A DNA stretch of 64,000 nt, from contig NW_026570249.1 in NCBI RefSeq assembly GCF_019649055.1, forward strand, positions 124,001 to 188,000. The letters run 5' to 3'. The notes under the pieces are model-generated. The model was not told where the DNA came from, searched no databases, and worked only from the letters and a program-made list of their open reading frames with translations. This stretch comes from Paramacrobiotus metropolitanus. Its lineage: Eukaryota > Tardigrada > Eutardigrada > Parachela > Macrobiotidae. Below, in pieces: positions 9,235-62,469 of this stretch. The position numbers were made by a program, and so were the translations under genes. Within the stretch, counting starts at the first letter, position 1; each line of letters begins with the position of its first letter.

Positions 9235-9456
9235 TTAGCATGATGTATTCACTGCAAACTTGTGGTGGACGTCCGTTTTGTATTCAAGTAATCGGTCAAA
9301 ATGAGTTAGATTTTTCGAGGCACAGTCCACAGCTATGAACATTGCCCTTCTGGACACTCGCGCACTTGCATGGTTTCCGATAATATACAGCTCCCCTTCG
9401 TCGCGATCACTTAGAAGGTAAGGGTTGGCATTCAGCCAGTTCCGTAACCAAGCATA

Positions 9457-28816: not shown

Positions 28817-29196
28817 TTAATATTTTTATTAGTAGGAGCAATAACCCTCTTTTCGATAAATGTACTTACTTTGCAAAATTTATCCTCTGTTCGCATTGTG
28901 CTTAGTCTGTACATATAGGTAACAAGCACACTGTTTGCAGTCTAACGGTCACTTTCACAAACATTGTACGCTGTATAGAAAACTTATAGCTGTGCATTCA
29001 CATTTGAAAAAGTTCATAAAAGATTTTCTTGTGCTAGAGTTTTACTCAACGGTTCCGCTACCAGGGATTGTTCACTTTATTGAAAAAGGCATAAAGCAAT
29101 GCAGGAATTTCTCACAATTAAAATCAATATCTACTTTTGTACAATACTGAAAATTACAATTTTTGACATTGTTTAAAAATAAGCAAACTTTTAGCA
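28817..29196. other. intergenic between convergent genes
   Basis: The two flanking genes converge here. No coding signal. Confidence 0.5.
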
Positions 29197-32390: not shown

Positions 32391-34149
32391 TCAAGATGTG
32401 CATGCCGCACCGCCAACGGTAACCGTAATCGGAACAGTTGTCATAAAGCCCCAAGGATCCGAAGCTCGTCCAATCAAACTGAATGTTCCCGCTTGTGCCA
32501 AAGGTCCCATTGTTTTCAGTTCGCCAGAACTTGGATCAACAAAAAATCGTCCAATAACATCTTGCTGTAGACTGTAATTCAGGGGATCTTTGTCGGAATT
32601 AGCCGCCTACAAACAGTAAAAGCACAAATAAGCGCTAAAGATTTAATTGCTGACAAACAGTTTTTTAGCGAGTAATCATTTGCGCAGCGGTTGACCGTCA
32701 GAGTCGCCATAATCAGTTTAATAAATTCAGCGCTAATATTTAAATTACATATCCAGCACATTCGCTGTTACCTGGAGGAGACCAACAAATTGCCACCCGA
32801 CAACATTGCACGGAATATTGAACGAGTATGACGATGCCGAAAATACGGGAGAGCCGGCGACGGTAGTCGTGGCGAGGGTAGTAGCCCCTGCGGTACCGGT
32901 ACAGGTGGCGCTAATGGACACAGGTGCTTGTGCGCTTTGTCCATTCGAACCAACAGCCGCTACGTTAAAGTTTGTCGTGCCAACCGGTAAGGCCGCCGCT
33001 GTGGTTATCACACCGGTGGTCTGGCCAATTTGGTATAATCCATTCCCACCGGACATAAAATATGTCACCGTTGTGCCGGGTGCGAAACTGGCGGTAACCG
33101 TCCCGACCGTTGAGCCAATTGCACAGTTCGTCACGGTAAAAGTATATGAATTCTGGCTAAAGGTGCCACCTATGAATTAACCAGTCCAAAATAAATTTCT
33201 GTAATACAAACTTTTACATAAGCATATAATACATAAAACATAAATATAAATTGCTATATATAATAGCACAACTGCTATAATTCCTATATGGTGCATGTAA
33301 ACTTAAAATTAATCCCTTGTAATATGAATTCTGTAATATAAATTCCTGAAATATAAGTATATGTGCCCTTCATAAGTTCGAATAAACATACCGGCTAGTG
33401 TACAGGCCGGCGTAATGGTAACCGTCGCCGTCGAAGTCGCCACCCCAGTTGCTGCCGTTGTCGCCGTTATCAGAGCGATGATGGGCGTGTTGGTCGTCGG
33501 TGCGGTTGTAAAGGTCAGCGCTCCAGTAGTGGAACTAACCGCCACCTGGCTATTCAGCGTTCCATACTGTACAGCGGCGCCACCCGCCGAAGCCGATACC
33601 GATCCGATGGCCGTGCCCACCGTGCAGGTGGTCGGAGCAAAATTATACGTAGTTTGAGTGAATGTCGGTCCCCCGCAGCTGACCAAGTTAATCGTAACGG
33701 TAGCGGTGGGCACGGTACCGGCTGCCGGGGTGGCTGTGGCGGTCACCTGAATCGTTACTGGAGCGCCGTTGGTTGTCACGGCACTTACGAAGGATATGGC
33801 GCCGGTGGTGGGATTAATGGCAAACTGTCCCGCCGTCGGTTGGGAGGAGATGAGGTAGATGAGCGTGGCACCGGCGGGGGGTGTGGCTGTCACTGTCCCC
33901 ACTGATGCCCCGGCGGCACAGGAGGTGGGCGTGAAGGTGTAGGTGGTTTGTGTGAAGGTCTGCCGTTTACTACGGAAATGTCCGCTTTCTTTGGACTGGC
34001 CGAAACCCTGTAATTAAGCAGGGTGTGCAACAAGTTGATTTCAATATACTGAGCAGGATTCTTACATAGACTTGTGGAACGCTCAAAGAAATAACTATAA
34101 TAACGGAACTCAGAATATTCACAAAAAGGTCATGATACAGATGCACCAT
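32391..34149 (-). CDS. secreted cadherin-like protein with a recognisable cadherin repeat at the C-terminus
   Basis: Exons 34149-34066, 34007-33392, 33169-32772 and 32606-32391 join in phase and give 437 residues. Exon 1 is the signal peptide. Exon 2 has SKRQ and two two-cysteine domains (QTTYTFTPTSC, QTTYNFAPTTC). Exon 3 has a third (QNSYTFTVTNC) and the start of a fourth. Exon 4 reads NSDKDPLNYSL ... FFVDPSSGELKTMGPL ... RASDPWG, which follows the classic cadherin repeat pattern (AxDxD, YSL, FxVDxxSG, L, AxDxxG). That exon supports treating the whole family as derived from cadherin repeats that mostly lost calcium sites and gained a disulphide. Confidence 0.83.
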
Positions 34150-41778: not shown

Positions 41779-44700
41779 TCAGGGAAGTGCACCCGAGCTC
41801 CAGTTGCTGAAAAATTGTTCTATCCGGTTGATTTTGCCGATAACTTCCGAAGTTAAAATTTTCTGCAGAACTAAGACATCTTTTTGTTCATCCCGTCGCT
41901 GATAGAAGAACAGTGCACAAGTGATGTAAATTCCGGTCAGCTGCAAATCAAAGCTTATAGCATACTCCTTTTTCTGCGTAGCCTCCTTTTTCTACATTCG
42001 ACGATCGATGGTGTCGCAGTACCAAATTCTATTCTTCACTCCGGACTATACCGGTGGTTAATTTACACTATTAAATTTCAGCATTGCAAATTACTGTGCC
42101 ATAACAGTTGCAAGCAGTTCAAAATTCGTACATGCATAATGTGTTCCTTGTCGACCAGGAAAAAACCGCAAGCCGATAGCGACAGGTTTTGCTTGTTTTC
42201 TTCGATTTCTCGTCGAAATTTATGAATAACTCCTTGGAGCTGTTGCTTTCCTGAGTAGGTTCTACAGACAACCTCCTCATGGACTGCATCGATGTCATCA
42301 ATGTCATTCAGAAAATCCACAATTTTCCACGCCTAAAAAAAGTTGATCATATACAAATAAAACAAAATAACTCCACAAAAATTACAAATTAACTTACTGC
42401 CTGCACTGTTATTATGGAATAAGTTTATGAGCGTGGACCTGGTGAAGGTTCACGCGTAGGAACAGAATTGACGGAATTCTGCCTACCAAAAAGCCTAGCA
42501 ATGCTATAAAAGCGCCTACGCTATAGAAAGCGAGAAATGGCGTGACTGCTAGGAATTTATGACAAGACTAAATTCGATAGAATTTCCTCTTCGACAACTT
42601 CGCATTGCTGACTGCAGCAAGCGAGGAAAATGCGCACGTAGCCGCCACACAGTGCGGGTGCGCGCAGAACACCATGCTTTCGCCACGCGTAAGGCGGGCG
42701 CGCAATGAACACACAACAGACTGCCAAGCGAGGGTGTACGCATGTACGCCTGCGCTCACATGCCTCTGGGAGGGAGGCTGAGCTCCGTCGAAGCAAATCC
42801 ACATCCAATTCCTTGGGATCCTTGACGGCTCGTCTGTGTGTTTAATAAAACATCGAGATTTAATCTCCCTTTAACATCACAAATTCCAATTACATGTGTG
42901 AATAAAGAGATCTCGAAACAAAAGTAAAAACAGTAAAAATATCAACAGAATTCATTATCAAAACGACTAGGATCCTCCGACTCCTAAAGGTCACTGGGTC
43001 CTGTCAACCGTAATCCGCTTTTGGTCCATTCCGCTCTTTTTGAGCAATCTTTTTCATCACAAATGAGATCCGCTTTAAGGAATAGGTGCGTATCAAGTAC
43101 GACTTCTGAATACTGCTTCTTCATCTTTGGAATAAATGCGTATCAAGTACGACTTCTGCAAAATGAGATTCTTCCTCTTGGACGTGGAGGGACGTCTTGA
43201 AAGACAAGCTTAATGCTTCCTCCCTGGTAAGGTCATTCTTTTTAACTTGGATTGATGACTCGTTGAGCAGTGAAGTTCTCAAAGGTCATCCCTTTCTCTT
43301 TGATATGCGACTCATTTGGGCCGTGGCGATCCCAAAAGGTCATACATTTCTTCATCATGAGTTCAATATTAAAGGTCATGGAGGAACTTAGCCAATTTTC
43401 AGCTTTCAAGCAATTCTGCTTGCCTCCCTTGTAAAGGTCATCATTCTTTTTCATTTTCTTCGGTCGCACATCCTTTTCTTTTCCGTGTAGTGCAAATTGA
43501 CGCGCACTTCTTTTCCTTACCAGGTTCGAGGGCCGGTTAACGCCGTAACTCCTCTTTCTTCTGAGGCCGGTTATCGCCGTAACCTCAACATCTGAAAGTT
43601 TTACTCCTATTTTCTTGAACTCTTTCTCTTTTTCACCCTTGTGGCTTCTGTCATTCCGCAAGAGTGTGCCGACTCAGTAGGCCGCAACTACACTCTAAAA
43701 GTGACGTTTTAAATGTAATGAGGAAGGCCGGTTAGCGCCGTTACTCTTCCTGCTTCGAGGGCCGGATGACCTCCGTAACTCCCCATATTTCGGATCGCCT
43801 TGATCCTCTGCAACAAAACTCTGAAACCAATAGAAACACAAACGATATGACAGTTCAACAAGTTATGTCTCCTTCGCCCTGATACTGTACCTTTATCACC
43901 ATTCTCGTGCTGCCGACTGATGGCCGTAACTAGCACATCAGCGATGCCCTAAAGGTCATCACTGATCATTTGAACCATTGTCGCGGTTCCGATCGAAACG
44001 TCGTCTTTCTTTTTCATTACGATCAGACGTTCGATCTCGAGGTTCCTTTCCCTCTCTTGCAGCTCGTCTCCTTCGCTCCGGCTGCTAGTAGCACTGTGAC
44101 GATTTCGGTCACGTCTGCGATGAATACGGATCAAATGCTTTTCATGCATCAACCGTCCATACTTTTTAAGTCCCGTGACCTTTCTCGAGGATGATGGGAT
44201 GACCTTTCGCAGACGCGTGACCGTTCCAATTCTCGTGACCTTTTTCGAGAATGATCGGATGACCTTTCATAAACGCATGACCTTTCATGTTTCCATAACC
44301 TTTGTCGAGGATGATCGGACGACCTTTCGTACACATGTGACCTTTCATTCCTGTCGGCTGACCTTGCCAAGCCCGACTGATACGTTTCTCTCGGCGGTGA
44401 TTTCGGTCGTTTGAACTCGCCTCTCTTGAAATTTCTTTCGGTCTCCGTCATTTCGTTTTGCTGCATGAGGAATTTGCGCATGTTCTCAATTTTGTCCTCG
44501 ATCAAAATTTTGATGACTTGCGACCATCGGCCTTTTCCGTCAGGTTGACCTTTTCTTGCAGGAATATTGTATGTTCCTCTTTTGTTAGTGAGAGTGGGTC
44601 CTTAAGGATGATGTCCAATTGCTGGATGAGTGATTCGCGTATAATCGCCTCCTGTACGTCTTGTTTCTTAAATATCGCGTCCGAAACGGGTGCTGCAAGT

Positions 44701-47700
44701 CCCGCATGACCTTTATCTGCATTGGCTAAACCCTTCTCTGCCGCAGCTTTCTTTCTTTCTTTCAAACGCTTTCTTTCTGCTTCACGCTTTTCTTGCAATA
44801 TTTGCTTTCTAAACGCATTCGCTTCCGCAGTTTTAGGAGGTTCAAGGGTGACGTCCCATCCAGGTCTGCGTCCTACCCACATTCGGTATTTATCCTCCAA
44901 AATCACTCTATCTTCGGGCGATAGTTTCAGCCACGTTTTTCTTCTGACCAGGTGTCGAAATACATCTAGGTTGCCTCTTTTGCTTCCTGCGGAATTACCA
45001 GGAGTTGATTTGGCATCGGCACGGCGACCACGCATTCCCAACAAGGGAATCGTTCACCTGAAAGAATGTTGTTGCGCTTGCAATCCGGGCAATCCTTGTT
45101 GTAATTTGTCAACGGGTCGCCGGTGACCTTTACGATCGACGGTCTCCGTCCCTTCTCTGTCTTCTGATCAGTTTGGCTCCGTTCAGCCATTTTTCTCAGT
45201 TTTCACCTACAATCTCAAAATTTGTAAGTCCCGTGACCTTTCATTGTTTTCATTTTCCAACGTCTATCTTTAAGCCTATGATAAAAAGGCTATTCAGTGC
45301 TGAGCTGAAACTTTTCGCTGCTCTTTGATGATGACCTTTGTCATCCTTCTTTAGCTGAACCATTCTCAACTGTATGTGGATGACCTTTTCCCATCTTAGC
45401 TCATTCGCTACTCTTCTTGTAGAGTGTGGTTCGAAAATAATTTGAGAACTACGGTCTGCTCATCTCCTACTCGTTTCTGGTTCTGATTCTTCATTTTGTG
45501 TGGTAGACCTTCCTCCCACACTTTGCTTCTTGCTAATGTACGGTGACCTTTCTCTGCTTCATCAGCGCCATGACCTTTCAGTCCTTCCTTCGATGTGTGC
45601 TAAGTTCTCCGCTGAGTTCTTTAACTGGGCGCTTCTTCTCCTTCTCATCGCTTGAGCTCGGGTGACCTTCCCCCCCGGCTGCAATTTCTGCTGCCCTTTA
45701 GATCCCAGCTTGCCGGATAAAGTCTGATGACCTTTATCTTCCAACGTTTCAGCTTAAGTCTGGTGACCTTTAGCTGCAAACTTTTTGGATGAAGTCTGAT
45801 GACCTTTTTCTTCCAACATTTTCGGCTAAAGTCTGGTGACCTTTTAGCCTCAATCGCTTCTTGAACCTTCTCTCCTTGACTGCTCAGTACCGTTCTCTCA
45901 TGAGCAACTGTAAACGAAGTCAATTTCATTCTTCTTCTCTTTCATTGTTCTCGAGCTCGGGTGACCTTCCGCCCCGGCAAAACTTTCCGCTAATGTCTGA
46001 TGACCTTTAGGTGTTTCACTCGCTCTTTGATCCGTCCGTTCTTTTTTTTTTGTTTTGCGCCAATCGTTCATGAGCGATTTTCATTCAACGGCGTGATCGG
46101 AAATGTCTTCGATTAGCGGGTTTATTTCTGATGACCTTTATGCCGTCCCATGTTCCGGTCATAATATCATAAACTCCTATAAGCCTGACTTTCGGGTTTA
46201 TTTGTTTTCGTCCTTTAGTTATCCGATCAAGTAATGCTTTGTCGGCTTCGTCTTCATCTTGAACTTCCCCTCTCAGAATCTGTTCTGGAGTTGGCTTCGG
46301 AGTTTTCTTCGTTTTCTTGACCTTTCGCTTCTCAATTTCATTTGCGATCCGTTGGCCAAGTTGGTCGGCTTGTTCTTTGACGGCTTTTATCTGTTCCGCT
46401 CTTGAAAGGTCATTCTTGCCGTTGGTGGCAGAACATGGTTCGAAAGTATCTTGAAATTTACGCTCTGCTACTCTGCGAGCAGGCTCATCCATTTTCGCTC
46501 TTGAAAGGTCATCCCTGACATTAGTAGCGGAGCGTGGTTCGAAAGTAGGTGCCAATTTAGATTCATGCTCTGCGCTTTCTTTATCCCCGTTTCGGTGTGA
46601 CCTTTCATTTTGCTCAATCGTGGTCAAGTTCCCCGCTTCTTGACTAAGCTTCATCGTGACTGGCGTCTCAAAGTCTTTAACCTCTTTCTTCTGTCGTCCT
46701 CTCTTTTCTTAACTGGCTCTTCCGCCTCTTTTGGCTCTTCTGCCTCTTTTGGCTCTTCTGCCAATTCTGGTACAGAGCGTGGTTCGGAAGTATGCTGACG
46801 ACTACGCTCTGCTTGAGCTTGAGGATCGCGCTCCGCGATTTCATGACCTTTCTCAGTTATTTCCGACGCTGCCCTTTCAGCTTGACCTTTCTGAACCGGT
46901 AACGGTGGATGCCACGGTTTCAGACGATCCACCGAAACGACTCGTAAATCCGGTTCCTTCACCGCATCTTGCTCGATGACTTCGACTTCGTTCTGTCTCG
47001 GAAAACTGAGAATCTTCCACACTTTGTCATATTTATTCTTAAAGTCGGATTGATTTTCCTTCTTTCCTTGCTTTGTATCTTTCGGCAATCTGATTAAGAC
47101 TCGGTCTCCGACTTTGAATTGCGGCTCTGACTTCTTCTTGTTGTAGATTTCTGCGTGCTTTTCGTAAGCATCTTTGATGTTGCACTTCGCCACTTCTTCT
47201 GAAAAGGTCAAGTTCCTTTTCATGGTTTCGACCCATTCGTCTGGTGCACCGTAGTCGTCAGGAACGTTCGTCTTCGTCACTACGTCTTCTGGCATGGTCA
47301 TTTCTCTCCCGTGAAGCATGTAGTACGCTGAGTACCCCGTCGTTGCATGTACTGCACGGTTCATTGCCGATATGACGTAAGGAAGATACTTGTTGAACTT
47401 CCTTTCATTTCCCGCTTTTAGGTACTGCGACAATCCATCACTGATGGTCTGCATCTGTCTTTCCACCTGTCCTTGACCTTCAGGATGGTATGCTGTTCCA
47501 AACGTGTGTTTGATTTTGAACACGTTGGTGACCTTTTTCAGTACTTCTGCGGTGAAATGCCTTCCGCGATCCGTATGGAGAATATGTGGCGCTCCGTGCA
47601 CCAAAATTACGTGTTTCACGAAGATCTTTGCGAATTCCTTTGCGGTGGCTGTTTTCATCGGCTCCGCTATAACGTACTTCGTCAGCTGGTCAATAAAGAC

Positions 47701-53700: not shown

Positions 53701-56700
53701 TGCGCAATAACTTCGTATTGTGACCTTTCATTGCGCACGTCTTTGGACGGTTTTTCTTGCAACTTTGTCATTATCTCTTGCGTAATTTCATCCGCAAAGG
53801 TCATCTCGTCATCTTCACTCTTTTTCTCTGGTGACCTTTCGTACACAACCATCTTATGGTCGTTTTCTTTCATCCAATCGGTAATTTTCTTCGCAATTTC
53901 GTTATTCGTGCGAGTTGGATCGATTTGAGATGACAATCCGTCAGTTCTTGGCGGTGACCTTTCGTTGTCATTCCGGATTGCTTCTGTCATGTCATACGAC
54001 TTCTCCTTCTGCGGAGTTTGCGCTAAGTCCGGTGACCTTTCCGGTTTTGACATGAAAAATCCACCATTTAGTGACCTTTGTAAAGGTACTTTCTCACCAT
54101 ACTGAGGCGGTAATTCACCCTTCTCAATCCGCTCTCGAAACTGACGGTTATTTTCGTCACATTGGTTCTTCTCTTTCCAGTACTCTTGTACTTTCGGTTG
54201 TGAAGCTTTAACCATTTCCTCGAGATGTTTTCTCATCCGCCAGTCTTGTTTCTCTCTTTCTTCCCAGTAAGCTTCTCTGGGAATTCTCACATCTTGCGGT
54301 GACCTTTGTGGCGGAGGAACTGGTTTCCACATACCGTGTCGTCCATTTGGTCTGTAAGCCACTTTTTGCCACTCCATCTTCTGTTGTAGAGTGTTTGCCT
54401 CATCGAGAGAGTCATCTGAGACTTGCTGTGCCCCTTCGCTCTGTTTCACTGTTTGCTGCGCCATTCGCAGAGTCAAGTTACTTTCTTGACCTTTCGGTTC
54501 ATCGGCGACTTCACCGTGACCTTTCTCTTTCAGTGACTCCTGAGTCTGTTGCACTGGCTGTCCCTCGTGACCTTTCACTTCTTCAACTCTCGCTTGAGGT
54601 GACCTTTCGGTCTCTTGCGCTCCTTGCGCAGTCACGGCCTTTCCGTGATCTTTTTCGGCAGCTCTTGCTTGAAATACTTTTGCCATCTGCTCGAGAAATT
54701 TCGGTCTATCTGGACCGCCTTCGTGCGTCCGTTGCACTGTTACGGTCATTCCGTCAACTTCAAACGTATTTTCGACGAACTTTCGGAATCTCGCGTGATG
54801 TGTTTCATCATCCTCTTCGCTTGAGATTTCCGCTTGCGTCTTTCGGAGAGTAGCTTCACTCTTCCTCGCAGTTACTTTCTGCGGTGACCTTTGGGTCTGC
54901 TGTCCTTGCAGCGTCACGTTACTTTCGTGACTTTCTTGATTTGCAGTTACTTTCTGCTGTCCCGGATGCAGAGTTGAGGCCCTTCCGTCAACCCTGTTCC
55001 CCGCAGTTACTTTCTGCGGTGACCTTTCGGTCGGCCCCGGTTGAGTCAAGTTACTTTCTTGACTCCCCGCAGTTACTTTCTGCGGTGACCTTTCGGTCAA
55101 ATTCTTCCGTCCTTGCGGCAATCTTTTTAAACCCTTCTCTTGTCCTTTATGAGCCCCTTCGCTCGATTTCGAGTTACTTTCTCGAATCCTCGGATTTCTT
55201 TTCCGGGTCTTTGCGTTACTTTCGCAGCATCCCTTTCTCGCTGCGGTCCTTGCCTGCAACGGAGCACCTTGCTCCTCTATATCCGGTGGTTTCGGTTCCG
55301 GACGATCAGTAGGCTCACCGGCGCCTACTGACCTTGAACGTTTCCCTGGGCCATTCCCTGAACCGGCGCACCTTGCGCCTGTCCGGCACCATTCGCCGGG
55401 GCGAAGTTAAAACCTCCGCCTTGCTGACCGAAACCGTTCTGGTTCCCACCGACGAAGCCGCCTTGCTGCCCGCCGAAGTCGCCCTGGCCACCTTGACCGG
55501 CGAAATTGCCCTGGCCACCTTGACCGGCAAAATTCTGGCCACCTTGACCACCATTATTCCACTGGCCTCCTTGACCAGCACCGTTCCATTGGCCACCTTG
55601 ACCACCACCATTCCATTGGCCACCGCCGTAATTTCCGCGATTGCCGCCGCGGCCTCTGCCTCTACCTCGGAAGCCGCCTCTAACCGGGCCATATCCGCCG
55701 TTTCCTCCGCCTTGGCCACCTTGACCGGCGAAGTTGCCTTGGCCTCCGAAGTTATCCTGGCCGCCTTGACCTCCGTTGTTCCACTGGCCACCTTGACCAG
55801 CGAAATTCCCTTGGCCGCCAAAATTGCCCTGGCCTCCTTGATTGTTGTAGTTGGCCTGGCCACCTTGACCGGCGAAGTTCCCTTGGCCACCTTGACCAGC
55901 ATACCGACCGCCTTGGCGTGATTGTGGCACGTATCCGTTTGCTATTGCGTTGCGCCATCCGCCATGATTGTTACGCAGCATCAACCATTCTTCATACACG
56001 ACCCGGTTGGGGTTCTGATTCCACGGTGTTCCCGCGAACGAACACGCTTGTGTGTAGTGGTTGCCGTACATGCAGTTCTGGCATGTCAGCGCGTTATTGA
56101 CCACCCATCCGTCGATCATGGTGAACAGGCGCTCTACTCGCGACCCGTATCGTGGTCCTTGATTTCCTTGTCCACGGTTCGGTCGGAAGTTTCCTGATTT
56201 CCTCCGCCACCGTTGAATCCCTGGCCAGCAAAGCCCGGATTCGCCTGAGCCATTCCTTGACCACCGAGCCCTCCATTCAGGGCATTTCTCTGCACGTTTC
56301 CTTGTGGATTCTGTTTCGGCCTTGCTGCTTGCTGAGCTGATGCTTGGATCGCCGCGATCGCAGGCTTGGTTACTTCTTGGACGGCCGTTTGGATCGCCGC
56401 GATCGTCGCGTACGATACCTGACCTTCATTTCGACCGTTGCCAAAGGTCATCTCTTGAGTGCCTAACGGCGGGAATTCCGTATTGTATCCTGGCGCCTGC
56501 GCCGAGCACGACTGGTTCTGTCGCCCATTCGCGACTTCTTCGATCTGGCCCGATCGGATGATCACGCAATCATCTTGGACTCGGTTGCCTCTCGTGACCT
56601 TATACTTTTCTTCGCCAGTCGACCAGGTGCGGAAGAATTCCTTGATATCCATTGGGTTATGGAATTTCTGTGCTCGGAGTGCCTTATAAAGGTCACTGTC

Positions 56701-59700
56701 GTTCTTACATCCTTGAATCAGGAATCCGATAGCCTGCTTCTCAGTTATGATCCGTTTCGACTTGAAGCGCATGATCGCCTGATAGAACTGGTCAAGCGTT
56801 TCTTTGCCAGCCTCGAACTTTCTCGTCATCGCTTCTCTTAAGGCGTTGACCCCTTCGTCACGATCGCCAAAATGTTCTTTGAACTTTGTCATCCATTCAT
56901 CGACGGTTAACTCTTCCGCCTCTTCCTCATCATCAATTTCTCTTTCCGCGTCAAACCATGCCTTCGCGTCCCTTTGACTGCGTTGGCGACTTCCAGCATC
57001 ATTGCTGCATCCGAAAGGTCATACGTCTTCTGAGTCTCCTTGACCTGACGGATCCAACCAAGTAAAGCTTCTCGGTTGCCGTTGTAGTCGATCAACGCGG
57101 ATTTCCGGGCCATGGCTCTCATGTAACCTCTGAATTCCCGTTCTTCGCGACGGAGTCGCTGTGCTTCAGCGTGGTATTCCGCGCGGTATTCTCTTTCTCG
57201 CCTCTCCTCTTCACGAGCTACCCTTTCCTGCTCGTTTTGGCGAACTCGTGGATCTTCATGATTATCTGGTTGATGGTCAGATTTGTAGACAATTGTTTCC
57301 CTCGGTCCTGTTTCTTGTTGCCGAGGATTGACCCCACCGATCGGTCCTGAGTGCCCCTTCGCCAACTCAGTATCGTCGGTGACCTTTTCAGCTTTGGCCG
57401 TGACCTTATCTTTATCATGGCCGTCGCTTCGGCCAGTCCCCGTCTTTAAGGGAGCTTGGAAATGAAAGCTACCTTCGACGGTGTGGACTTCACCGTATCT
57501 GGGGGGTGGAGATTCGATCCGTTCCGGCTGTTTTGCCTCTCCTTCCTTTTGTTTTGCCGACCGTTTTAAAGTTTTAATTTCTTCCTCTCTTTGTTTGACT
57601 GTCTGCTGCAGCTGCTTTACGGTTTCGTTTGCGTCTTTCCTGAGCTTCTCATAATCGTTGTTTGCTTCGGTGACCTTTCTCATTTGCTCGAGGATTGTAC
57701 TTGCTCTGTTATCGAGAGTCTTATCGAGATCCATTTTTGCTGCTTTTAGGATCTCAGCTTCTGCTTCCAACCGTGTGATACGATCCGCTCTGTCTGCGAG
57801 GGTCCTTCCTCTCGCTTGGCACTCTTCCTCAACTACTTTCAGTTGTGTTTTTAGTTCCGTAATTTTGTCATCCTTTTCCATTACGGAAGTAGCCAATCCG
57901 ACTGATTCATCGCTCAATTTGGCGATCTCTTCTTTTTGTTTTTCATTTTCTGTCTTTCCTTCTTTATTCACGACCTCTAGCACAGTGACCCGTTCGTCAC
58001 ACCGTTGTGCTTCCTTCAACCACTTTTTTGCTTCTTTCTTTTGGTTGTCGATTTCGTCATTGAGTCGTTTGAATTCAGTTTTTGTTATTTCAGCCAGTTC
58101 AAGCAGTTCCTTTGCTGCTTGATCTCTCTGGCTTTCCGCTTCGTTGTGTTTCCTTTTCATCTCTTTTAATTCTGTTTGTAACGTGTTGACAAGGTCTTCG
58201 CGTAATTTAAGGTCATCCTTCAGTTTCGAGATGTCAGCCGTCAAGCTGGTGACCTTTCCGGTGAACTTCGTCGCATTTGCTAGGGATTCGTCACGTTTCT
58301 TCTCGGCCTCCTTGACCTTTGACTGTAAAAGGTCACGCTCCTTTTTCAATTCTGCTATTTCCTGTGACCTTTCAGCTGCTTCCTCGGACAGACCGTAGTT
58401 TTCTGCGGTGAGTATACCTTCCGCGTCTCGATCTTCGACCATTTTCCTCAGATCCTCTGCAGCTTTTTTCTGACCTTCAAATCTGACTTTCCATTGTTGC
58501 GCTTCATCTTCGAACGTGACCTTTTCTTGTTCCATCACGCTCAATCTGGCTTCGACTTCAAAGGTTTTGTTGCGTTGGTCCCGTATCGCAGCGAAAGCTT
58601 GCGCTTCCTTTTCGTCGAGGAGTTGTTCTAGTTCCTTGACACGCTGCTTTAATCCGTTCATTACAGACGTTTTTGGTGATGGTGACCTTTGTTCCCGGTC
58701 GTCGGCTCTTCCTGACGCCGTTCCTTCAAAGGTCTCTTCTAACTTGTCCTGGAGGGTCGTTTCAAACATCCCTTTCGTTAAGTTGGCCTCCTTCATTGCC
58801 GTATGGAAAGACGTCCGTATCGTCGTTTCATCTTCATCGTCAGTGTAGAACTTTTCGCTCGACACGGGACTGGTACCATTCTCTTCCAGCTGATCGTGTA
58901 AGAACAGTGAGTTGTCCGAAAGGTCATCCTGTTTGACCTTTCCTTCGTTGATCAGCTCGTTGCTGCTGACGGCGCCACCACCTTCGGTGACCTTTTGACT
59001 GACTTCGTCACTTCCCTTCTCAACTTGATCCGCGTTTTCCTCCTTGACCTTTTCGGCCGACCGTGCCATTCCTCCGGTCTCGGCCTTCTTGTCATCTTTG
59101 TTCTGTCCATCTGAAGCCGTTCTCTCTTCGGTGACCTTTGCTTGGTCTACCGTGTTATCTCCGACATGTCGTTCGGAGCTTTTTCCATTTCCGTCACTCG
59201 AGCTTTCGTTCTGAGTTTCCCTCAGGGCCGTTTGATATGTGGCCTCTGAGCCTCTGGTGTCCTTCCTCCCAAAGGTCTTTTGAGCTCGAGTTGCTCTTTC
59301 ATGTTCCACGGGCCGTGTGTACGGCTTTAGTTTCCGTTCGTAAGGGTTTTCTAACCCCTGAGACCGTTCTCTCTGATTGCTCGATGAGACCGGTTCATTA
59401 CCGTCTGTGTCTTGATCCATATCTTTGGCTTCCGTTGATGATCGGATAACTTGGACGATGCTATTAATGTTTCTGACACGTTAGTTTTAGCTACGTAAGC
59501 CCCTTTACACGTAAACAGAAACAAGCGCTGTCCTAAAGGTCACCTTTTCAGCTCAACTTTACTAAAGGTCACTCTGCCTCAAAAAGTGCTAAGTTCCTTC
59601 TAAAGGTCACTTCCTTTAGTAAAATGAGATTAATTTCCCACTGTTTCAGCTTAATAGCTTACTCCGTCACGTTAAAGGTCACTTTTTCCTTCAGAACTTT

Positions 59701-62469
59701 TTCCGTTTAAAGGTCACGATCGATTTCGGTCAAAACGTTTAACCTGAGAATATTTTTGGATTTTACTGAGGAATCAACTCAGATTTCCTCGAGATAAACG
59801 TTATTTATTTAGCTTTCAACTTTTATTAAAGGTCATCATTCTCGTCAAAATTTATGGTTAAGGTCAACTTCTCGTCAGTCGGTTCAGAAAATTTTCTTAG
59901 CTGGTTACGTCACGATCTTGAGTGCCGCGCGGAAAGACTCCGCCTCCTAACAAAATCTCAGCTTCTAATTGGCTGATTTCCTAGCTAACTTTAGCTACGC
60001 TACTGCTCCAATCACAGTGCGAATAACCGACCAATCAGAAACGTTGTTTTTCGAATTATAAGGCAGAGTGACGTCACGACCAAAATCGAAAATTTTCGCT
60101 AGCGCGCCGTGCGCAAAAGTACCGCCTACTTTTCTGCTCAGCTCAGAACCGACAAATGAAAATTGAGGATTTTACCTATCAGCCAATTAAAAAATTAATA
60201 ACGAATTTCTGACCTTTTCAATTCCAGAATCCGAAGATGGAGATCCTCCGCGTTATTCCGCGTCCTCCAGTGATCCTCCAGCGATTAAGCTGACTTCTCC
60301 TGGGCCAGCCGCTAACCCCTTCTGCTTCGTTTCAGCAGGACGCAGCGGTGCGTCGACCAAAAGACTTGCTGGCTGCGGGTCTTCTGTCGTGCCTTGACGT
60401 TAGCAACGACAGGGGCGCTCGACCTCCTTTTTGGGGGAGCGCGTATAATGTGTGTGCGCTCTACTCAGTAGAGACGCACCTGAAAACTCCACACCCGACA
60501 GCCAAAAGTGGCTTGCCCACTCGTGCCCCCCTTCGGGCTTCTGCCTCTTGCGGCGATCTTTCTCGGCGCTTGTGCCCCTCCAATCAAAGCTACTTCAGTA
60601 GCTTTGATCGCGTCAGAACAGTACAGCGTGCTCTACTCAGTAGAGACACACTGGTGCTGATCTGCTGTCGAGATCCAAACGCTCCTTTCGCCACCAAACC
60701 GTACGCGAGCCCTTTCTCGCGGAAACTTCTTCCACACCTCGTCAATTGGACGGGAAAACTCTCAGATTATCCTGGAGAAACACGACTCTTGCTACCATAT
60801 GAGCGTGGACCTGGTGAAGGTTCACGCGTAGGAACAGAATTGACGGAATTCTGCCTACCAAAAAGCCTAGCAATGCTATAAAAGCGCCTACGCTATAGAA
60901 AGCGAGAAATGGCGTGACTGCTAGGAATTTATGACAAGACTAAATTCGATAGAATTTCCTCTTCGACAACTTCGCATTGCTGACTGCAGCAAGCGAGGAA
61001 AATGCGCACGTAGCCGCCACACAGTGCGGGTGCGCGCAGAACACCATGCTTTCGCCACGCGTAAGGCGGGCGCGCAATGAACACACAACAGACTGCCAAG
61101 CGAGGGTGTACGCATGTACGCCTGCGCTCACAAGTTCATATACATACTGTGAAAATATAATAAAATTTGAATTATGCATAGAAAAGATCCTGTAAGCGGT
61201 GAAACAATGTAATTTCAACAAATTATTTTTTCCGCAAATCTGTAGTTATTTCGTGCAATGCTACTGTAGAAAATTAAACAATTGCAGTACGATGGGCTTT
61301 CAACTTACCCTGTCATTCAAAGTTTTGCTCACCCACAGCCGCGCTACCATGGCCAATAACAACACCGGGATACAAGTCCGTAAAATGAACGTGGCAGCTT
61401 CGTGTAAGAAAACTGACTTGACCTTATCCTCTACAGTGGAATACGGAGTTTCTACTGATAAAAAATGGGCGATGTATGAAACTATGCAAACTAACTCCGC
61501 AAAGGTATTAGTGAGAATAAGAATGCCAAATTTATCGTTTAATGCCTTCACCATAGATCGCAAGCACCGGTGATATTGCTGCAGATCTTTAACGGTTGCC
61601 ACGAGTTTTTCCGATCCAAATGTGCCGGATGTGATATGGGAATTTAGAGATTCAGCAGCTCTGGTATTTAACGCTAAAAATCCTGCTTGCAGCTGATAGC
61701 ATGCAACAATTATCAGCGCATTAGTGGTACTCCACAACAGAAATGAACACATTAGTCCACAAATATAGATGACAACTTGACCCATAAATGCGATCTCTCC
61801 CGGAAGAACATCCACCCGTTGCAGCGAGCTCCAGCTTAAAAACCCGGGCACAATTGTATTGACTTCGTTAACATTATCAGCATTGGCGCAGTACACCGAA
61901 TATCCCAAATATGCGACATAAATAAGTATGAACGTTATAACGCCAATTAGGATCCAATTAAGCTTGCAGTAGAACGACGCGGTAAAAATATCTTGAACAG
62001 TCACCTTTGCGTTGATTGACGCTCCATAAGATGTCTCTTTTGCCCGGTGCAATAACAAAACGTAGATTGCAAGCAAAGCATGGATGTTGAACAGGATTCG
62101 GTAAGCCAAAACCAGCACTGCATGACCTTCCAGGTCTTTTATATTCCCCGCGTAGGAGCGATATAGTATGTCAAGATCTATTAAGAAAAAATACCCAAAG
62201 AGTGCAAAAAGCATCCAGTGAAAAACTTTTGTGAAATACGAAATACAAGTCTCGACACTTTGTTTCGGATGAAGTTTGTCAGTTTGCGCCGTTTGTTGAA
62301 CGTCAACGGATTTATCGAAATCCAGAGACCGCTGATTCGGACAGCAATGCGTCGACCAACCAATTATTCGCCACAACAGCCTTGCCAACACCGAATTAAC
62401 TTCCTGGCTTGATTTAAGATCAGCAGGTTTATCATTCTTGTCCCATACTGGCATTATTAGAACTGTCAT
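41779..62469 (-). CDS. gustatory-receptor-like (7tm_7) chemoreceptor, intron 1 enlarged by an 18.7-kb retrotransposon
   Basis: Exon 1 (62469-61309), exon 2 (42332-42132) and exon 3 (41940-41779) join in phase 0 and give 507 residues. Exon 1 has six hydrophobic segments (LFALFGYFFLIDLDIL, AYRILFNIHALLAIYVLLL, LIGVITFILIYVAYLGY, VVIYICGLMCSFLLWS, AELVCIVSYIAHFLSV, IPVLLLAMVARLWV) and ends LNDR at a GTAAGT donor. Exon 2 has the Gr-family stretch SACGFFLVDKEHIMH. Exon 3 supplies the seventh segment GIYITCALFFYQ, in the place of the family's TYhhhhhQF ending. Without the LTR element the first intron would be about 0.27 kb, normal for this locus. The element lies on the sense strand of the gene, so premature polyadenylation or a very long intron is possible. 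Start chosen at ATG 62469; a TTG lies upstream in frame. Confidence 0.78.
42422..42425. repeat. 4-bp target-site duplication (AGTT), left copy
   Basis: AGTT at 42422-42425 and again at 61133-61136 flanks the element exactly. Four-base duplications are usual for Ty3/gypsy integrases. Confidence 0.8.
42426..42760 (-). repeat. 3' LTR (335 bp)
   Basis: Identical by eye to 60798-61132. Read on the minus strand it starts TGTGAGCG and ends CGCTCATA, an imperfect 8-base terminal inversion. On the plus strand it carries TATAAAAG at 42505-42512, antisense to the element. No clear polypurine tract lies next to it at 42761 onward. Confidence 0.95.
42761..44148 (-). other. 3' internal region of the retrotransposon, short ORFs of doubtful value
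   Basis: Open frames at 43242-43661 (139 codons, very Lys-rich), 43709-43936 and 43949-44152 have no recognisable domain. Several AAAGGTCA copies occur here, mostly in plus orientation (about 42984, 43281, 43337, 43369, 43427, 43950). Short GGCCGGTTA-type repeats lie at about 43530-43760. It may be 3' UTR. Confidence 0.45.
44149..45190 (-). CDS. extra retrotransposon ORF with a zinc-ribbon-like CxxC pair, frame-broken
   Basis: Three overlapping open segments follow each other: 45190-44966, 45044-44502 and 44505-44149, each in the -1 frame of the previous one. The first has CPDCKRN...FPCWEC, two CxxC pairs 15 residues apart, as in zinc ribbons. The second is rich in charged helix (KREAERKRLKERKKAAAEKG) and has VRRKTWLKLSPEDRVIL. 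The third is made of repeats containing ERSSDHxRxRxRxxERS. It is after integrase, where retroviruses keep env, but has no membrane segment. Function unknown. Whether it is one protein depends on whether the frame changes are real. Confidence 0.45.
44161..44345. repeat. about three tandem 60-bp units containing TGACCTTT
   Basis: Each unit has GTGACCTTTxTCGAGxATGAT, then GATGACCTTTC, then a third TGACC. Some octamer copies are changed by one base (TAACCTTT, CGACCTTT, TGACCGTT). Confidence 0.7.
45191..46084 (-). other. post-pol region with 36-bp tandem repeats
   Basis: About four units of about 36 bp (AAGTCTGRTGACCTTT...) span about 45715-45850, each with one TGACCTTT. Short open segments at 45929-45645 and 45744-45562 translate the repeats as KVIRL/KVTRL or KGHQ. 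No domain is recognised. Confidence 0.55.
46085..46654 (-). CDS. retrotransposon ORF after integrase (189 aa)
   Basis: Its ATG overlaps the stop of the pol segment (ATGA), in the -1 frame; the frame is open some 20 codons upstream, so it may be the true end of pol rather than a separate gene. It has two copies of the FEPxSAT repeat found elsewhere in the element (TFEPRSATNV, TFEPCSATNG), then a Lys-rich part and an ending RLIGVYDIMTGTWDGIKVI. No known domain. Confidence 0.5.
   Translation of the reverse strand: MKLSQEAGNLTTIEQNERSHRNGDKESAEHESKLAPTFEPRSATNVRDDLSRAKMDEPARRVAERKFQDTFEPCSATNGKNDLSRAEQIKAVKEQADQLGQRIANEIEKRKVKKTKKTPKPTPEQILRGEVQDEDEADKALLDRITKGRKQINPKVRLIGVYDIMTGTWDGIKVIRNKPANRRHFRSRR
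46651..49536 (-). CDS. pol: pol segment 2: end of reverse transcriptase, RNase H, integrase
   Basis: 961 codons open. It starts with the RT thumb region (TKCEFGMREMGFLGHILS). RNase H follows (IECDASKEGLGAILSQDG, HKALTNLL). Integrase has the HHCC zinc module (HDEKAAGH ... CQGCQ), then the DDE core: D in VYADLKGP, D in HTDRGRHF, and E in GQGQVERQM. It ends with an SH3-like C-terminal part (FKVGDRVLIRLPKD ... VDRLKPWHPP). Catalytic residues look complete. It is separated from the preceding RT segment by a -1 frame change just after YIDD, with no slippery site there. The start codon given is only the first possible one in this frame. Confidence 0.9.
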   Translation of the reverse strand: MRFRLYRRCIFAGKTWEIFMQNLRNVLQSLVDAGFTIKPTKCEFGMREMGFLGHILSENGIKMDPEKVMAVNGQKKPTTERQLRSFLGLANYYRKFILGYAQKTAHLYELLRHDKNIKRDWSAIHDQEFNDLKEALCKDPVLKKFDPTKPTVIECDASKEGLGAILSQDGHPIAYASRVLHGAEKNYGVTEWECLAVVFAVRKFKSYIDYSEFTVRTDHKALTNLLRSESNKSCMNPRLTRWALALQGHRFKIEYKPGKYCDNADALSRAPIEGPTCNEEEYDEIPNFEDYKNELNREEPPIEVWQLFVQLAEEREERLKTDMRRVMSEEKESGDMRSSINEAERSRRLTFEPRSATKIKVNRVRKEASERKDGKVTKDGQKMVDQNDLCEAEILSEYIPEECPIRLLRFPKKIEKGHKPLPRCKVIKDWNELSTAVVRIVNLQGDEEEEDDTNLQLRDKQLKDPHLAMIIDELEHLQDADKRSKFETHYQLWNGILYRVKDQKGRLERTYVVPLQMRRAIIHALHDEKAAGHLGFEKTLTAIRLRYYWDRMSTDVKNYILACQGCQFIKTPRKCPPGKLQEIKVGHPFFRVYADLKGPLLPTKKRGYKYIAVFIDQLTKYVIAEPMKTATAKEFAKIFVKHVILVHGAPHILHTDRGRHFTAEVLKKVTNVFKIKHTFGTAYHPEGQGQVERQMQTISDGLSQYLKAGNERKFNKYLPYVISAMNRAVHATTGYSAYYMLHGREMTMPEDVVTKTNVPDDYGAPDEWVETMKRNLTFSEEVAKCNIKDAYEKHAEIYNKKKSEPQFKVGDRVLIRLPKDTKQGKKENQSDFKNKYDKVWKILSFPRQNEVEVIEQDAVKEPDLRVVSVDRLKPWHPPLPVQKGQAERAASEITEKGHEIAERDPQAQAERSRQHTSEPRSVPELAEEPKEAEEPKEAEEPVKKREDDRRKRLKTLRRQSR
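49467..55259 (-). CDS. pol: pol segment 1: long N-terminal part, aspartic protease, reverse transcriptase to YIDD
   Basis: 1,930 codons open. The frame extends upstream of 55259 to the frameshift site, so it is probably expressed as gag-pol. The first 600 residues are low-complexity with many ERSP/KVT/KGH tracts. A retropepsin follows (AMLDTGAETSLI, then VQVLLGFDFL). A long acidic linker of about 1,000 residues comes next, unusual for Ty3/gypsy. RT begins near residue 1,715 (KPVKCNPARTSWK, VVLAAKKNGDGT, RFCVNYILLNKLT, MDLQSGFWQIPM, MPFGVCNGPATFQ) and reaches the catalytic FGYIDDV at about 49510-49530. There the frame changes and the ORF ends. Confidence 0.9.
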   Translation of the reverse strand: MQARTAARKGCCESNAKTRKRNPRIRESNSKSSEGAHKGQEKGLKRLPQGRKNLTERSPQKVTAGSQESNLTQPGPTERSPQKVTAGNRVDGRASTLHPGQQKVTANQESHESNVTLQGQQTQRSPQKVTARKSEATLRKTQAEISSEEDDETHHARFRKFVENTFEVDGMTVTVQRTHEGGPDRPKFLEQMAKVFQARAAEKDHGKAVTAQGAQETERSPQARVEEVKGHEGQPVQQTQESLKEKGHGEVADEPKGQESNLTLRMAQQTVKQSEGAQQVSDDSLDEANTLQQKMEWQKVAYRPNGRHGMWKPVPPPQRSPQDVRIPREAYWEEREKQDWRMRKHLEEMVKASQPKVQEYWKEKNQCDENNRQFRERIEKGELPPQYGEKVPLQRSLNGGFFMSKPERSPDLAQTPQKEKSYDMTEAIRNDNERSPPRTDGLSSQIDPTRTNNEIAKKITDWMKENDHKMVVYERSPEKKSEDDEMTFADEITQEIMTKLQEKPSKDVRNERSQYEVIAQVIKGHENAQEKGLMCEVAKVTGKEIAAKEQTNALPKSKRIEKFSDVRPDVPKRIDRWSSKGLIESKHAAPIPVKCRIRVLKLEDGNLPKRIEAYTHEVKIGNKKVMAMLDTGAETSLICQQFCERNGLQTVRLPPKKKVMIKGISGTSGFEVTHYCVAPVTLRRKTSQHSFYVRPASDDVQVLLGFDFLAKKFILIDGDDEEERETEAEDDEPKSSAKVNAGKVTELQQRNNSGQTAIPVPEAQGSNDKEQNENGENLIPVPEAQGLKKAERSKRSLKSKGTQRSPTMEQIKIMQAEALIAKKQSLVPGMEWSRLLPVPEALGTKMVGPRTEPGLMNSDERALSSEIRDQARKQLDARKTEHGAQHTFEPRDKARGRVKGRDTRARNDAAERSRRLTSEPRSADEEIEVIEISSDNSVIEIEKDDEWTDTDSGETDKRVIVRPEPRQRMPEGDNRVVSRKPREWTAEERATSCHHDWHDSDDLSIARPQERCAKCMQEMTQDDLSEWPKCNAAIARHNRQEEKEVKSIIRTLPMPELSKATYLWQCYREWLSVVKNYIISRGKWLHHWQQEADNFIPEKADKSDPWYTNPITKLDRERRRAMEENEIWEQARVDLFWEFRVNYLWKGQGRAIIFPIGLGTVVYELFDLYQACLKKGNLREWNKQWGKILEEVPIYTGEIPELRVTRKRRELGLFGYPRKKKVTFAPDPDGVEYPERGGDTWCMYETVPKNDWTTEELMANCVFIGDKRPKGHGTSAEKENGKSAEEEKSKDNGTSAEETKEKEQEVSTSAAQENGTGAEEEEPTHTAYELAQMIKELNQAFRDKENGIPVTEAKKAQMSPQEKKAASLVASLQRSLGNGEEGPPPEKNERSLNAMLEEEPERSVPKVDERSPETGEEGPPVEQAERSQNIAQADDSSEDEERDRSRARIRATRTNPRIAARNGRKSKETDKPLPEKRKAKKLSAPKDESDDLTTESEDEGVDERPIEKKSKGQELEANNSSESDSEFSSTSDNSTTSEDSGVSDLSDQEDLLDLDEDDEKNEQQEKEIIVRRIKVQKARIPEGAIKVYSDQRVKLRPNLGTRVKVKMGAHVPRNQKLMYTATPQKDNEVQPRTGVTDHNGTRFEIIIENRSKSRKTVRKGQFLGYVEHYEHLENVKVNSATVVKNILEDPEVDAKTKEELNDIIERLKLGPDLTEEQKNDVRNAFWEFWKVLPTSKKPYGDVKGVTHTIDTADAKPVKCNPARTSWKGREFITKHIEEMLQQDVIEPSDAEWSFPVVLAAKKNGDGTMGTRFCVNYILLNKLTKKNNYPLPNPDELLDACAGNKYYGKMDLQSGFWQIPMDPASKDKTTFVTQDGMFRFKRMPFGVCNGPATFQLCMDKVLSNAKRMGCVFGYIDDVSSQGRPGRSSCRT
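55283..55346 (-). promoter_or_regulatory. -1 programmed frameshift signal: slippery heptamer plus H-type pseudoknot
   Basis: In the gag frame the heptamer G GGA AAC (55346-55340) matches X XXY YYZ. After an 8-base spacer, TCAGTAGGC (55331-55323) pairs perfectly with GCCTACTGA (55314-55306). The 8-base loop contains CCGGTG (55321-55316), complementary to CACCGG at 55288-55283, with 1 nt before and 1 nt after it in the loop and 17 nt between the stems. The gag stop UAG lies inside the first stem. Pol is open in the -1 frame. Confidence 0.9.
55325..56119 (-). CDS. gag: gag segment 3: zinc knuckle and Gly/Gln-rich nucleocapsid
   Basis: 264 codons. A CCHC knuckle CQNCMYGNHYTQAC (C-x2-C-x4-H-x4-C) near the start is followed by a long Gly-Gln-rich part with tandem GQGGQGNFAGQ units and an RGRGRGG box, consistent with RNA binding. 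It ends at UAG inside the frameshift pseudoknot. The frame is open upstream of the first ATG and overlaps gag segment 2, so it probably continues that segment after a one-base change near 56198. Confidence 0.85.
   Translation of the reverse strand: MIDGWVVNNALTCQNCMYGNHYTQACSFAGTPWNQNPNRVVYEEWLMLRNNHGGWRNAIANGYVPQSRQGGRYAGQGGQGNFAGQGGQANYNNQGGQGNFGGQGNFAGQGGQWNNGGQGGQDNFGGQGNFAGQGGQGGGNGGYGPVRGGFRGRGRGRGGNRGNYGGGQWNGGGQGGQWNGAGQGGQWNNGGQGGQNFAGQGGQGNFAGQGGQGDFGGQQGGFVGGNQNGFGQQGGGFNFAPANGAGQAQGAPVQGMAQGNVQGQ
56134..56892 (-). CDS. gag: gag segment 2: capsid domain
   Basis: 252 codons. MTKFKEHFGDRDEG..., RKFEAGKETLDQFYQAIM, FLIQGCKNDSDLYKALR is the usual Ty3/gypsy capsid helical region. It then turns Gln/Ala/Gly-rich. 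In this frame the coding extends upstream through AKAWFDAEREIDDEEEAEEL, which continues segment 1 across a -1 frame change near 56970-56975 in a short G run. Confidence 0.85.
   Translation of the reverse strand: MTKFKEHFGDRDEGVNALREAMTRKFEAGKETLDQFYQAIMRFKSKRIITEKQAIGFLIQGCKNDSDLYKALRAQKFHNPMDIKEFFRTWSTGEEKYKVTRGNRVQDDCVIIRSGQIEEVANGRQNQSCSAQAPGYNTEFPPLGTQEMTFGNGRNEGQVSYATIAAIQTAVQEVTKPAIAAIQASAQQAARPKQNPQGNVQRNALNGGLGGQGMAQANPGFAGQGFNGGGGNQETSDRTVDKEIKDHDTGRE
56907..59420 (-). CDS. gag: gag segment 1: long coiled-coil N-terminal part
   Basis: 837 codons from ATG 59420. After an acidic, disordered first 250 residues there is a heptad-rich coiled coil of about 350 residues (LKQRVKELEQLLDEKEAQAF through about VKQLQQTVKQREEEIKTLKR). 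The C-terminal part (EREFRGYMRAMARKSALIDY, LLGWIRQVKETQKTYDLSDA) is the start of the capsid domain and runs into segment 2. Such a long coiled coil ahead of capsid is uncommon. Tracts ERSP, KVT and KGH mark embedded AAAGGTCA octamers. Confidence 0.85.
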   Translation of the reverse strand: MDQDTDGNEPVSSSNQRERSQGLENPYERKLKPYTRPVEHERATRAQKTFGRKDTRGSEATYQTALRETQNESSSDGNGKSSERHVGDNTVDQAKVTEERTASDGQNKDDKKAETGGMARSAEKVKEENADQVEKGSDEVSQKVTEGGGAVSSNELINEGKVKQDDLSDNSLFLHDQLEENGTSPVSSEKFYTDDEDETTIRTSFHTAMKEANLTKGMFETTLQDKLEETFEGTASGRADDREQRSPSPKTSVMNGLKQRVKELEQLLDEKEAQAFAAIRDQRNKTFEVEARLSVMEQEKVTFEDEAQQWKVRFEGQKKAAEDLRKMVEDRDAEGILTAENYGLSEEAAERSQEIAELKKERDLLQSKVKEAEKKRDESLANATKFTGKVTSLTADISKLKDDLKLREDLVNTLQTELKEMKRKHNEAESQRDQAAKELLELAEITKTEFKRLNDEIDNQKKEAKKWLKEAQRCDERVTVLEVVNKEGKTENEKQKEEIAKLSDESVGLATSVMEKDDKITELKTQLKVVEEECQARGRTLADRADRITRLEAEAEILKAAKMDLDKTLDNRASTILEQMRKVTEANNDYEKLRKDANETVKQLQQTVKQREEEIKTLKRSAKQKEGEAKQPERIESPPPRYGEVHTVEGSFHFQAPLKTGTGRSDGHDKDKVTAKAEKVTDDTELAKGHSGPIGGVNPRQQETGPRETIVYKSDHQPDNHEDPRVRQNEQERVAREEERREREYRAEYHAEAQRLRREEREFRGYMRAMARKSALIDYNGNREALLGWIRQVKETQKTYDLSDAAMMLEVANAVKGTRRHGLTRKEKLMMRKRRKS
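59421..60780 (-). other. retrotransposon 5' leader with strong hairpins
   Basis: 1.36 kb between the primer-binding site and gag. Seven AAAGGTCA octamers lie between 59530 and 60215. Perfect inverted repeats occur at 60459-60473 and 60632-60646 (CTCTACT-C-AGTAGAG, twice) and 60583-60608 (12-base arms). These could serve packaging or dimerisation, by analogy with other LTR elements. The plus-strand open frame at 60348-60881 overlaps these hairpins and is not considered a gene. Confidence 0.6.
60781..60797 (-). promoter_or_regulatory. primer-binding site
   Basis: Immediately inside the 5' LTR the minus strand reads TGGTAGCAAGAGTCGTG. It begins TGG, complementary to a tRNA CCA end, with no spacer. 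The implied tRNA 3' end (CACGACTCTTGCTACCA) resembles but does not equal initiator tRNA-Met. The exact tRNA is unknown. Confidence 0.85.
60798..61132 (-). repeat. 5' LTR (335 bp)
   Basis: Identical by eye to 42426-42760. It abuts the primer-binding site and the AGTT duplication. The plus strand has TATAAAAG at 60877-60884, pointing out of the element toward exon 1 of the receptor gene. Confidence 0.95.

Follow-up and report, generated by a model that had tools for sequence, protein, structure and literature searches.

The element and its octamers

The window, by which we mean the whole 64,000-nucleotide stretch analyzed here, belongs to contig C29 of the 169.8-Mb genome of the tardigrade Paramacrobiotus metropolitanus, and on its minus strand, at positions 42426–61132, lies a long terminal repeat (LTR) retrotransposon of 18,707 bp whose internal part is filled with one 8-base word, AAAGGTCA in one orientation and TGACCTTT in the other. 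The two LTRs are direct repeats of 335 bp that are 100% identical (5′ LTR, 60798–61132; 3′ LTR, 42426–42760), and a 4-bp target-site duplication, AGTT, flanks the element on both sides (42422–42425 and 61133–61136). Pfam domains follow each other on the minus strand in the order protease, reverse transcriptase (RT), RNase H, and integrase, which is the Ty3 order, and by this domain set together with the best protein matches we class the element as Ty3/gypsy-type. The four best matches of the pol open reading frame (ORF) are all P. metropolitanus proteins.

The ORFs, all on the minus strand, overlap and are spread over several frames. Reading from the 5′ LTR, the untranslated leader holds a lone sense AAAGGTCA (60210–60217) and then a cluster of six octamers within about 300 bp (59535–59835), all sense TGACCTTT, which stand five times in the context GTGACCTTTA and once in ATGACCTTTA. 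ORF1 (56907–59420) encodes a long charged protein with no Pfam family above its cut-off and carries 14 octamers. A Gag-like ORF in another frame (56134–57018), named Gag by position only and without a Pfam match, has two octamers in 56134–56906. It is followed at the nucleocapsid position by a Gly/Gln-rich ORF (55325–56425), for which a Pfam search gives no family and in which a pattern match finds one CCHC zinc-knuckle motif, CX2CX4HX4C (56042–56083); there are no octamers in 55325–56133. The ORF with the aspartic protease and RT (49467–55406; Pfam gag-asp_proteas and RVT_1) has 35 octamers in 49566–55322, and the ORF with RNase H, H2C2, and the integrase core (46651–49563; Pfam RT_RNaseH, Integrase_H2C2, and rve) has nine in 46711–49563. 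Downstream are a short 3′ ORF, ORF A (46085–46708), with five octamers and recognizable counterparts in relatives; a 3′ region (44133–46084) that has short ORFs of uncertain status as well as tandem arrays of the 60-bp and 36-bp kind, with 19 octamers, all sense AAAGGTCA; and the region next to the LTR (42761–44132), with six octamers, all sense TGACCTTT.

A sequence-only reading of this DNA had put about 95 octamers in 42761–60797, roughly three quarters of them AAAGGTCA on the sense strand. The exact count is 97, with 27 AAAGGTCA on the plus strand and 70 on the minus strand, that is, 70 sense AAAGGTCA (72%) and 27 sense TGACCTTT. The left 42.8 kb of the window is sparse in octamers, as that reading had said, although we count seven there and not four or five. 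In 100 dinucleotide shuffles of the window the octamer count averages 2.80 and reaches 8 at most, against 104 observed, and a second-order Markov model predicts 2.85 for the element. The word is also unusually sharp, because its one-base variants are so scarce: each single-base neighbor occurs 0–3 times, except at position 1, where there are 18 in all (T 9, G 5, and C 4).

Octamers stand in the leader and the 3′ region as well as in coding parts, where AAAGGTCA is read in all three codon phases and TGACCTTT in the two that avoid an in-frame TGA, so that the use in every phase and in untranslated parts that had been described is borne out. The codon-aware control proposed with that description, an ORF shuffle in which amino acids and codon usage are preserved (n = 1,000), gives a mean of 8.56 and a maximum of 18 octamers against 73 observed, and the excess stands; 13 of these 73 fall in short ORFs of the 3′ part whose status is uncertain, and the remaining 60 belong to the four main ORFs, where 6.2 are expected. 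Octamers are dense where the sequence is free, as in the A-type part of the 3′ region (9.7 per kb) and the first portion of the pol ORF (8.0 per kb), and sparse in the conserved enzyme cores, with 0 in the RT segment and 2.6 per kb in the RNase H–integrase part; the LTRs and the Gly/Gln-rich Gag segment have none. The closest octamer starts in the element are 15 apart, which is a monomeric spacing. Helical phasing between neighboring octamers was considered and is weak (R 0.21 over 79 gaps). Short tandem arrays are present, and local tandem duplication adds some octamers in the leader and the 3′ region.

Filling of the places that the proteins allow

We call a place in an ORF compatible if its amino-acid sequence permits the octamer by synonymous choice. 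The four main ORFs carry the octamer at 60 of 80 compatible places (47 of 64 for AAAGGTCA and 13 of 16 for TGACCTTT), and six pieces from relatives of the element are filled to a similar degree, at 53/64, 21/24, 34/39, 32/44, 27/35, and 36/45 places. None of the 36 compatible places in six pol-region pieces of sister families is filled, and ORFs of at least 150 amino acids in the left part of the window (in any frame, many of them not genes and some overlapping) have 5 of 15 filled. A separate 3′ gene of relatives, with no counterpart found in the window copy, likewise has more octamers than expected: 10 versus 0.63 in L022 and 2–9 versus 0.26–1.27 in five other ORF pieces, of which the smallest value (2 versus 0.26) lies inside its shuffle range. 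The sense bias within the coding parts agrees with the numbers of AAAGGTCA and TGACCTTT places that the proteins allow, though the proteins may themselves have evolved around the word.

Compatible places are also unevenly common, at 10–24 per 1,000 amino acids in the octamer family, about 4 in the sister pieces, and 3 in the left-window ORFs. Because they are denser than in the sister pieces, the proteins of the element seem to have been remodeled, that is, bent toward the octamer.

Conservation among family copies

The genome contains at least 41 pol matches, and 40 of 356 first-look candidates were scored. We compared pieces of ten other copies together with 4.5-kb pol pieces of six further copies, and the counts of kept words and identical sites given here refer to a diverged set of 13 pieces from the same genome (L016–L028). 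In all 15 pieces tabulated, no 8-mer is more frequent than the octamer. Aligned octamers are unchanged in 242 of 319 cases versus 5,778 of 22,349 (26%) for control octamers, and fourfold sites are identical in 283 of 305 cases (92.8%) inside octamers and in 3,969 of 6,251 (63.5%) outside them. Per-base divergence is 0.11–0.28 in the flanks (mostly about 0.2), drops to 0.02–0.07 over exactly eight bases, and is 0.09 at the ninth. In coding parts, 171 of 218 AAAGGTCA words are kept and nearly as large a share of the TGACCTTT words, 44 of 63; of the noncoding TGACCTTT words 20 of 23 are kept. The lone upstream leader AAAGGTCA is kept in none of the three diverged pieces that align there. From these alignments we conclude that strong purifying selection acts on the octamer throughout the family, whichever way it is oriented and in whatever codon phase it is read, in coding and noncoding parts alike. 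The check in other copies that had been proposed has thus been made, and octamers are kept there; together with the codon shuffle and the filling of compatible places, it supports the earlier view that the word is retained as a nucleic-acid word and not by way of the protein.

Octamers are gained as well as lost. Counted relative to the window copy and summed over the pieces of each copy, five copies are balanced or gain-rich: C97 (gains 15/69, losses 7/61), C160 (12/61 and 11/60), C1:2.49M (9/72 and 7/70), C69 (6/70 and 6/70), and C41:684k (5/96 and 4/95). The other five are loss-rich: C1:4.07M (gains 11/77, losses 21/87), C203 (3/15 and 5/17), C70 (4/19 and 10/25), C162 (3/10 and 4/11), and C41:669k (2/40 and 19/58). 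C41:669k stands out for its stops, 20 in 2,663 compared codons and far more than in any other copy, as would be expected of a copy in decay. A link between decay and loss rests on this one clear copy, because C160, with nine stops in 3,168 codons, is nevertheless balanced, and C70, with six in 1,780, is loss-rich. A run of octamers in one orientation lies outside the alignment to the window element in one piece (L018, reverse complement 8476–9849) and is perhaps an oppositely oriented neighboring family member.

How the gains arose bears on whether the word could have spread without helping the element. Recombination, template switching, or conversion between copies might favor octamer-bearing stretches as donors, so that the word would spread by drive, much as bacterial uptake words do. 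Its extreme sharpness and near-saturation resemble those of uptake-sequence genomes, and the richness of the proteins in compatible places relative to the sister pieces and the left-window ORFs would fit as well. However, of 82 gains relative to the window copy (26 pieces, in which related copies are counted repeatedly), 46 are changes of one base, 17 of two to five bases, and 19 involve an insertion or deletion, and divergence beyond the eight bases is at background, where conversion should have brought the flanks along. We think drive quite improbable. The same two observations speak against the self-propagating micro-repeat that the sequence-only reading had listed, at least as the main source of octamers, and we rejected the copying of a longer unit as that source since flank divergence equals the background rate in pooled alignments.

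Sister families, the genome, and viral contigs

The next-nearest Ty3 families in the same genome have 44% and 41% protein identity to the element, and the octamer is absent from six related pol-region pieces of these families, a region that is octamer-sparse in the octamer family too. Around four sister places on contig C1 there is no close octamer pair within 40 kb, among the pairs listed. Because the sister pieces have none, the octamer is not a habit of host elements generally. Genome-wide, AAAGGTCA occurs 42,562 times versus 15,522 for the reversed word (2.7×), and close pairs number 2,652 versus 56 (47×); by eye, many of 100 listed close pairs belong to the octamer family. If the excess of 27,040 words were mostly in this family at about 90 per copy, it would amount to roughly 300 copies' worth.

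Two other places with the word or something like it were noted. A duplicated small gene, secreted-looking by eye (C1:276900–278000 and 331500–332600; L046 and L047), has about three TGACCTTT upstream and one inside, and may be a case of a host promoter with the same site, oriented as in the element leader. An inverted-arm repeat (C1:565000–568000; L048) has AAAGGTCATCCACCTTTCT-like units that are opposite in its left and right copies, and resembles the subterminal repeats of DNA transposons.

Clusters of AAAGGTCA also occur in IMG/VR viral contigs, with up to 53 words (L107, L131, L088, L095, and others), and these offer a contrast to the retroelement. In the 15 densest of 80 such contigs, the words are nearly one-stranded and in most contigs share one or two position classes, which is what protein repeats would give. 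This contrast helps to judge whether the octamers of the element could result from chance, from base composition, or from a protein repeat encoded by the word. By eye the proteins are rich in K, E, R, and S, short tandem arrays do exist, and the left-window ORFs show that the fill rate elsewhere is above zero. Against this stand the base and codon shuffles, the three phases, the use of both strands, and the noncoding octamers. We consider the probability of this explanation negligible: chance with codon bias is ruled out by the dinucleotide and codon-preserving shuffles, and a protein micro-repeat by the phases, the synonymous sites, and the difference from the viral contigs.

A candidate reader of the octamer

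Since the octamer is retained in either orientation and in every codon phase, and since variants that G-U pairing would tolerate are rare, the reader of the octamer is probably a protein on double-stranded DNA. On these sequence patterns we hold a sequence-specific protein of this kind to be quite probable. The sequence-only reading had called the word an extended nuclear-receptor monomer half-site of the ROR/ERR/FTZ-F1 type. ROR prefers T at position 2, ERR prefers T before the word, and FTZ-F1 prefers C at position 1. The match to a monomeric half-site stands, but the copies overall do not show these three preferences, and the exact match is instead to the NGFI-B response element (NBRE) of NR4A receptors. 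The second most common word, AAGGTCAC, fits the NR4A2 database motif. One clear DNA-binding domain of the NR4A type is present in the host genome, split over three exons at C45:296700–298600 (L045) that are 83%, 76%, and 67% identical to the NGFI-B DNA-binding domain, and its A-box, which includes SLKGRRGRLPTKPK, is nearly identical to that of NGFI-B. The NBRE is given as AAAGGTCA, the monomer site of NR4A receptors, in the introduction of PMC4777543 and in PMC12539977. That an NR4A protein reads the octamer thus appears somewhat better than an even bet.

Taken together, these patterns lead us to propose that a sequence-specific protein recognizes the octamer in double-stranded DNA, the host NR4A-type receptor being the most likely one, and we give this reading a probability of about 0.55; binding by this candidate, and its benefit to the element, would be what the conserved word reflects.

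Several points weigh against this proposal. Receptors of the ERR type also seem, by eye, to be present in the host, and ERR would likewise accept leader words with a preceding T. About 100 sites are, in our judgment, far above what a promoter needs, and the word is sharper than usual receptor motifs. Noncoding AAAGGTCA words are kept in only 7 of 15 cases, less than noncoding TGACCTTT, and since copies and pieces share ancestry, the conservation counts overstate independence. The ends of the element raise a further difficulty: in stretches of the leader cluster cut from five copies, 42 of 42 words are sense TGACCTTT, typically AAGTGACCTTTA, as are 17 of 17 words in stretches close to the 3′ LTR of three copies, a fixed orientation not expected of a site that works equally well either way round. 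In the C160 copy the leader cluster is missing altogether. Finally, the discussion section of PMC4777543 gives the NBRE with different letters from its introduction.

Against the six octamers in the leader cluster of the window copy, four other copies have 8, 8, 8, and 12, and T precedes the word in 24 of 30 distinct leader words; a single AAAGGTCA further upstream in the leader, like that of the window copy at 60210, is present in the C1:4.07M copy too. The strict orientation of the cluster argues for a strand-aware role at the ends, such as in transcription, and because the cluster adjoins the promoter in a fixed orientation, part of the function may well be transcriptional.

The arrangement of orientations could alternatively point to RNA. 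In such a case, the octamer would act in packaging, or through UGACCUUU-AAAGGUCA pairing, be it inside one genomic RNA or from one to another. Since the orientations complement each other, and the end clusters have only UGACCUUU and the middle has mostly AAAGGUCA, end-to-middle pairing would be possible. Variants compatible with G-U pairing, however, are scarce (AAAAGTCA 1, AAAGATCA 1, AGAGGTCA 2, AAGGGTCA 1, AAAGGTCG 3, and GAAGGTCA 5) next to 97 exact words, and a reader of single-stranded RNA would not retain both orientations in coding parts. The coding excess of AAAGGTCA, moreover, matches what the proteins allow, with the reservation already made that they may have evolved around the word. 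We hold a role in RNA to be very unlikely.

Another candidate is a DNA-binding protein of the element family itself, for example ORF1 or a 3′ ORF of relatives, which would use the word for compaction of its complementary DNA (cDNA), packaging, or self-recognition. The word does track the lineage of the element, being absent from the six sister pieces of the same host, and several relatives (L012, L020, L022, L024, and L028) have long ORFs 3′ of pol, of up to 1,612 amino acids (unbroken in L022), that match no known family. Pfam, however, gives no family for the long 3′ ORF, and no DNA-binding family in it or in ORF1, and one well-conserved stretch of the 3′ ORF has no PDB relative (one match, E 0.2). 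The window copy, in addition, has no tblastn match of more than 60 amino acids to the 3′ ORF, with tandem arrays and octamers in its place, and yet keeps the array; and the identity of the word to a known host-receptor site would be a coincidence. An element-encoded reader is, on balance, unlikely. A suspicion raised by eye, that the 3′ ORF is a linker-histone or winged-helix protein, was dropped for want of a Pfam match or a PDB match worth naming.

A possible function

If the host NR4A-type receptor is the reader, it would dock additively on the octamers of the double-stranded DNA copy, and the array would serve as a DNA tag on the 18.7-kb molecule. Receptors bound for the nucleus would coat the cDNA and bring it in or keep it inside, in the way that plasmids are helped by transcription-factor sites, and in an integrated copy the same array could act as a dispersed enhancer and chromatin platform. 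We favor a role for the whole molecule because octamer density follows free sequence and not distance from the promoter. Whether the main benefit would lie in nuclear import or in transcription and chromatin is about evenly balanced.

The boldest form of this proposal is that the DNA of the element is written around one 8-base word, with codons and apparently proteins remodeled so that a receptor can coat it from end to end, as a passport into the nucleus or as its own chromatin; this we hold only tentatively, at somewhat less than even odds. If it is true, a mobile element carries a DNA-level signature to which codon choice, and perhaps protein sequence too, gives way over 18 kb. The element would then be a natural system for the effect of many additive sites on cDNA entry into the nucleus, transcription, and chromatin, and the finding points to one host gene, given the single clear NR4A-type domain found.

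Other features of the window

Several ORFs at 27685–34013 have TYPYTTG-like repeats and DNA tandem arrays and by eye are probably repetitive secreted proteins. An ORF at 23352–24503 resembles, by eye, a seven-helix G-protein-coupled receptor, and four paralogous minus-strand ORFs (9502–10074, 13386–14078, 18549–19241, and 20743–21420) look, again by eye, leucine-rich-repeat-like.

Comparison with known systems

Bacterial DNA uptake sequences are short exact words that occur far more often than expected in coding and noncoding DNA alike and have few near-variants. The element shares with them a single exact over-represented word in coding and noncoding parts with few variants, but uptake words are read in bacterial transformation, whereas here the word belongs to an animal retroelement.

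Among mobile elements, Drosophila gypsy has 12 Su(Hw) sites in 340 bp of its 5′ untranslated region (PMC2374998) and is, like the element studied here, a Ty3/gypsy element with clustered host-protein sites in its leader, putative ones in our case. As described there, the gypsy sites are confined to that one 340-bp block and are read by Su(Hw), whereas here 97 sites extend across the leader, genes, and 3′ region, with codon choice following, and the repeated word is the monomer site of a nuclear receptor. The NBRE, including the single AAAGGTCA that PMC9295971 describes as an NR4A2 binding site in the HIV-1 LTR, is identical to the octamer of the element (PMC4777543, PMC9295971). That site lies in the LTR, whereas our LTRs have none and the internal part has about 100 putative ones. 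Transcription-factor sites, including those of the glucocorticoid receptor, bring plasmid DNA into nondividing nuclei (PMC5705778); the DNA nuclear targeting sequences treated there are short viral, promoter, or engineered stretches, whereas for the retrotransposon cDNA such a role would be by analogy.

Among open-licence papers we found no report of an element that one exact site saturates throughout, even in its genes. From the sources cited, elements with clusters of host-protein sites (gypsy) and an NBRE in a retroviral LTR (HIV-1) are already known, and there is a fair chance that an element written along its whole internal length with one such site is categorically new.

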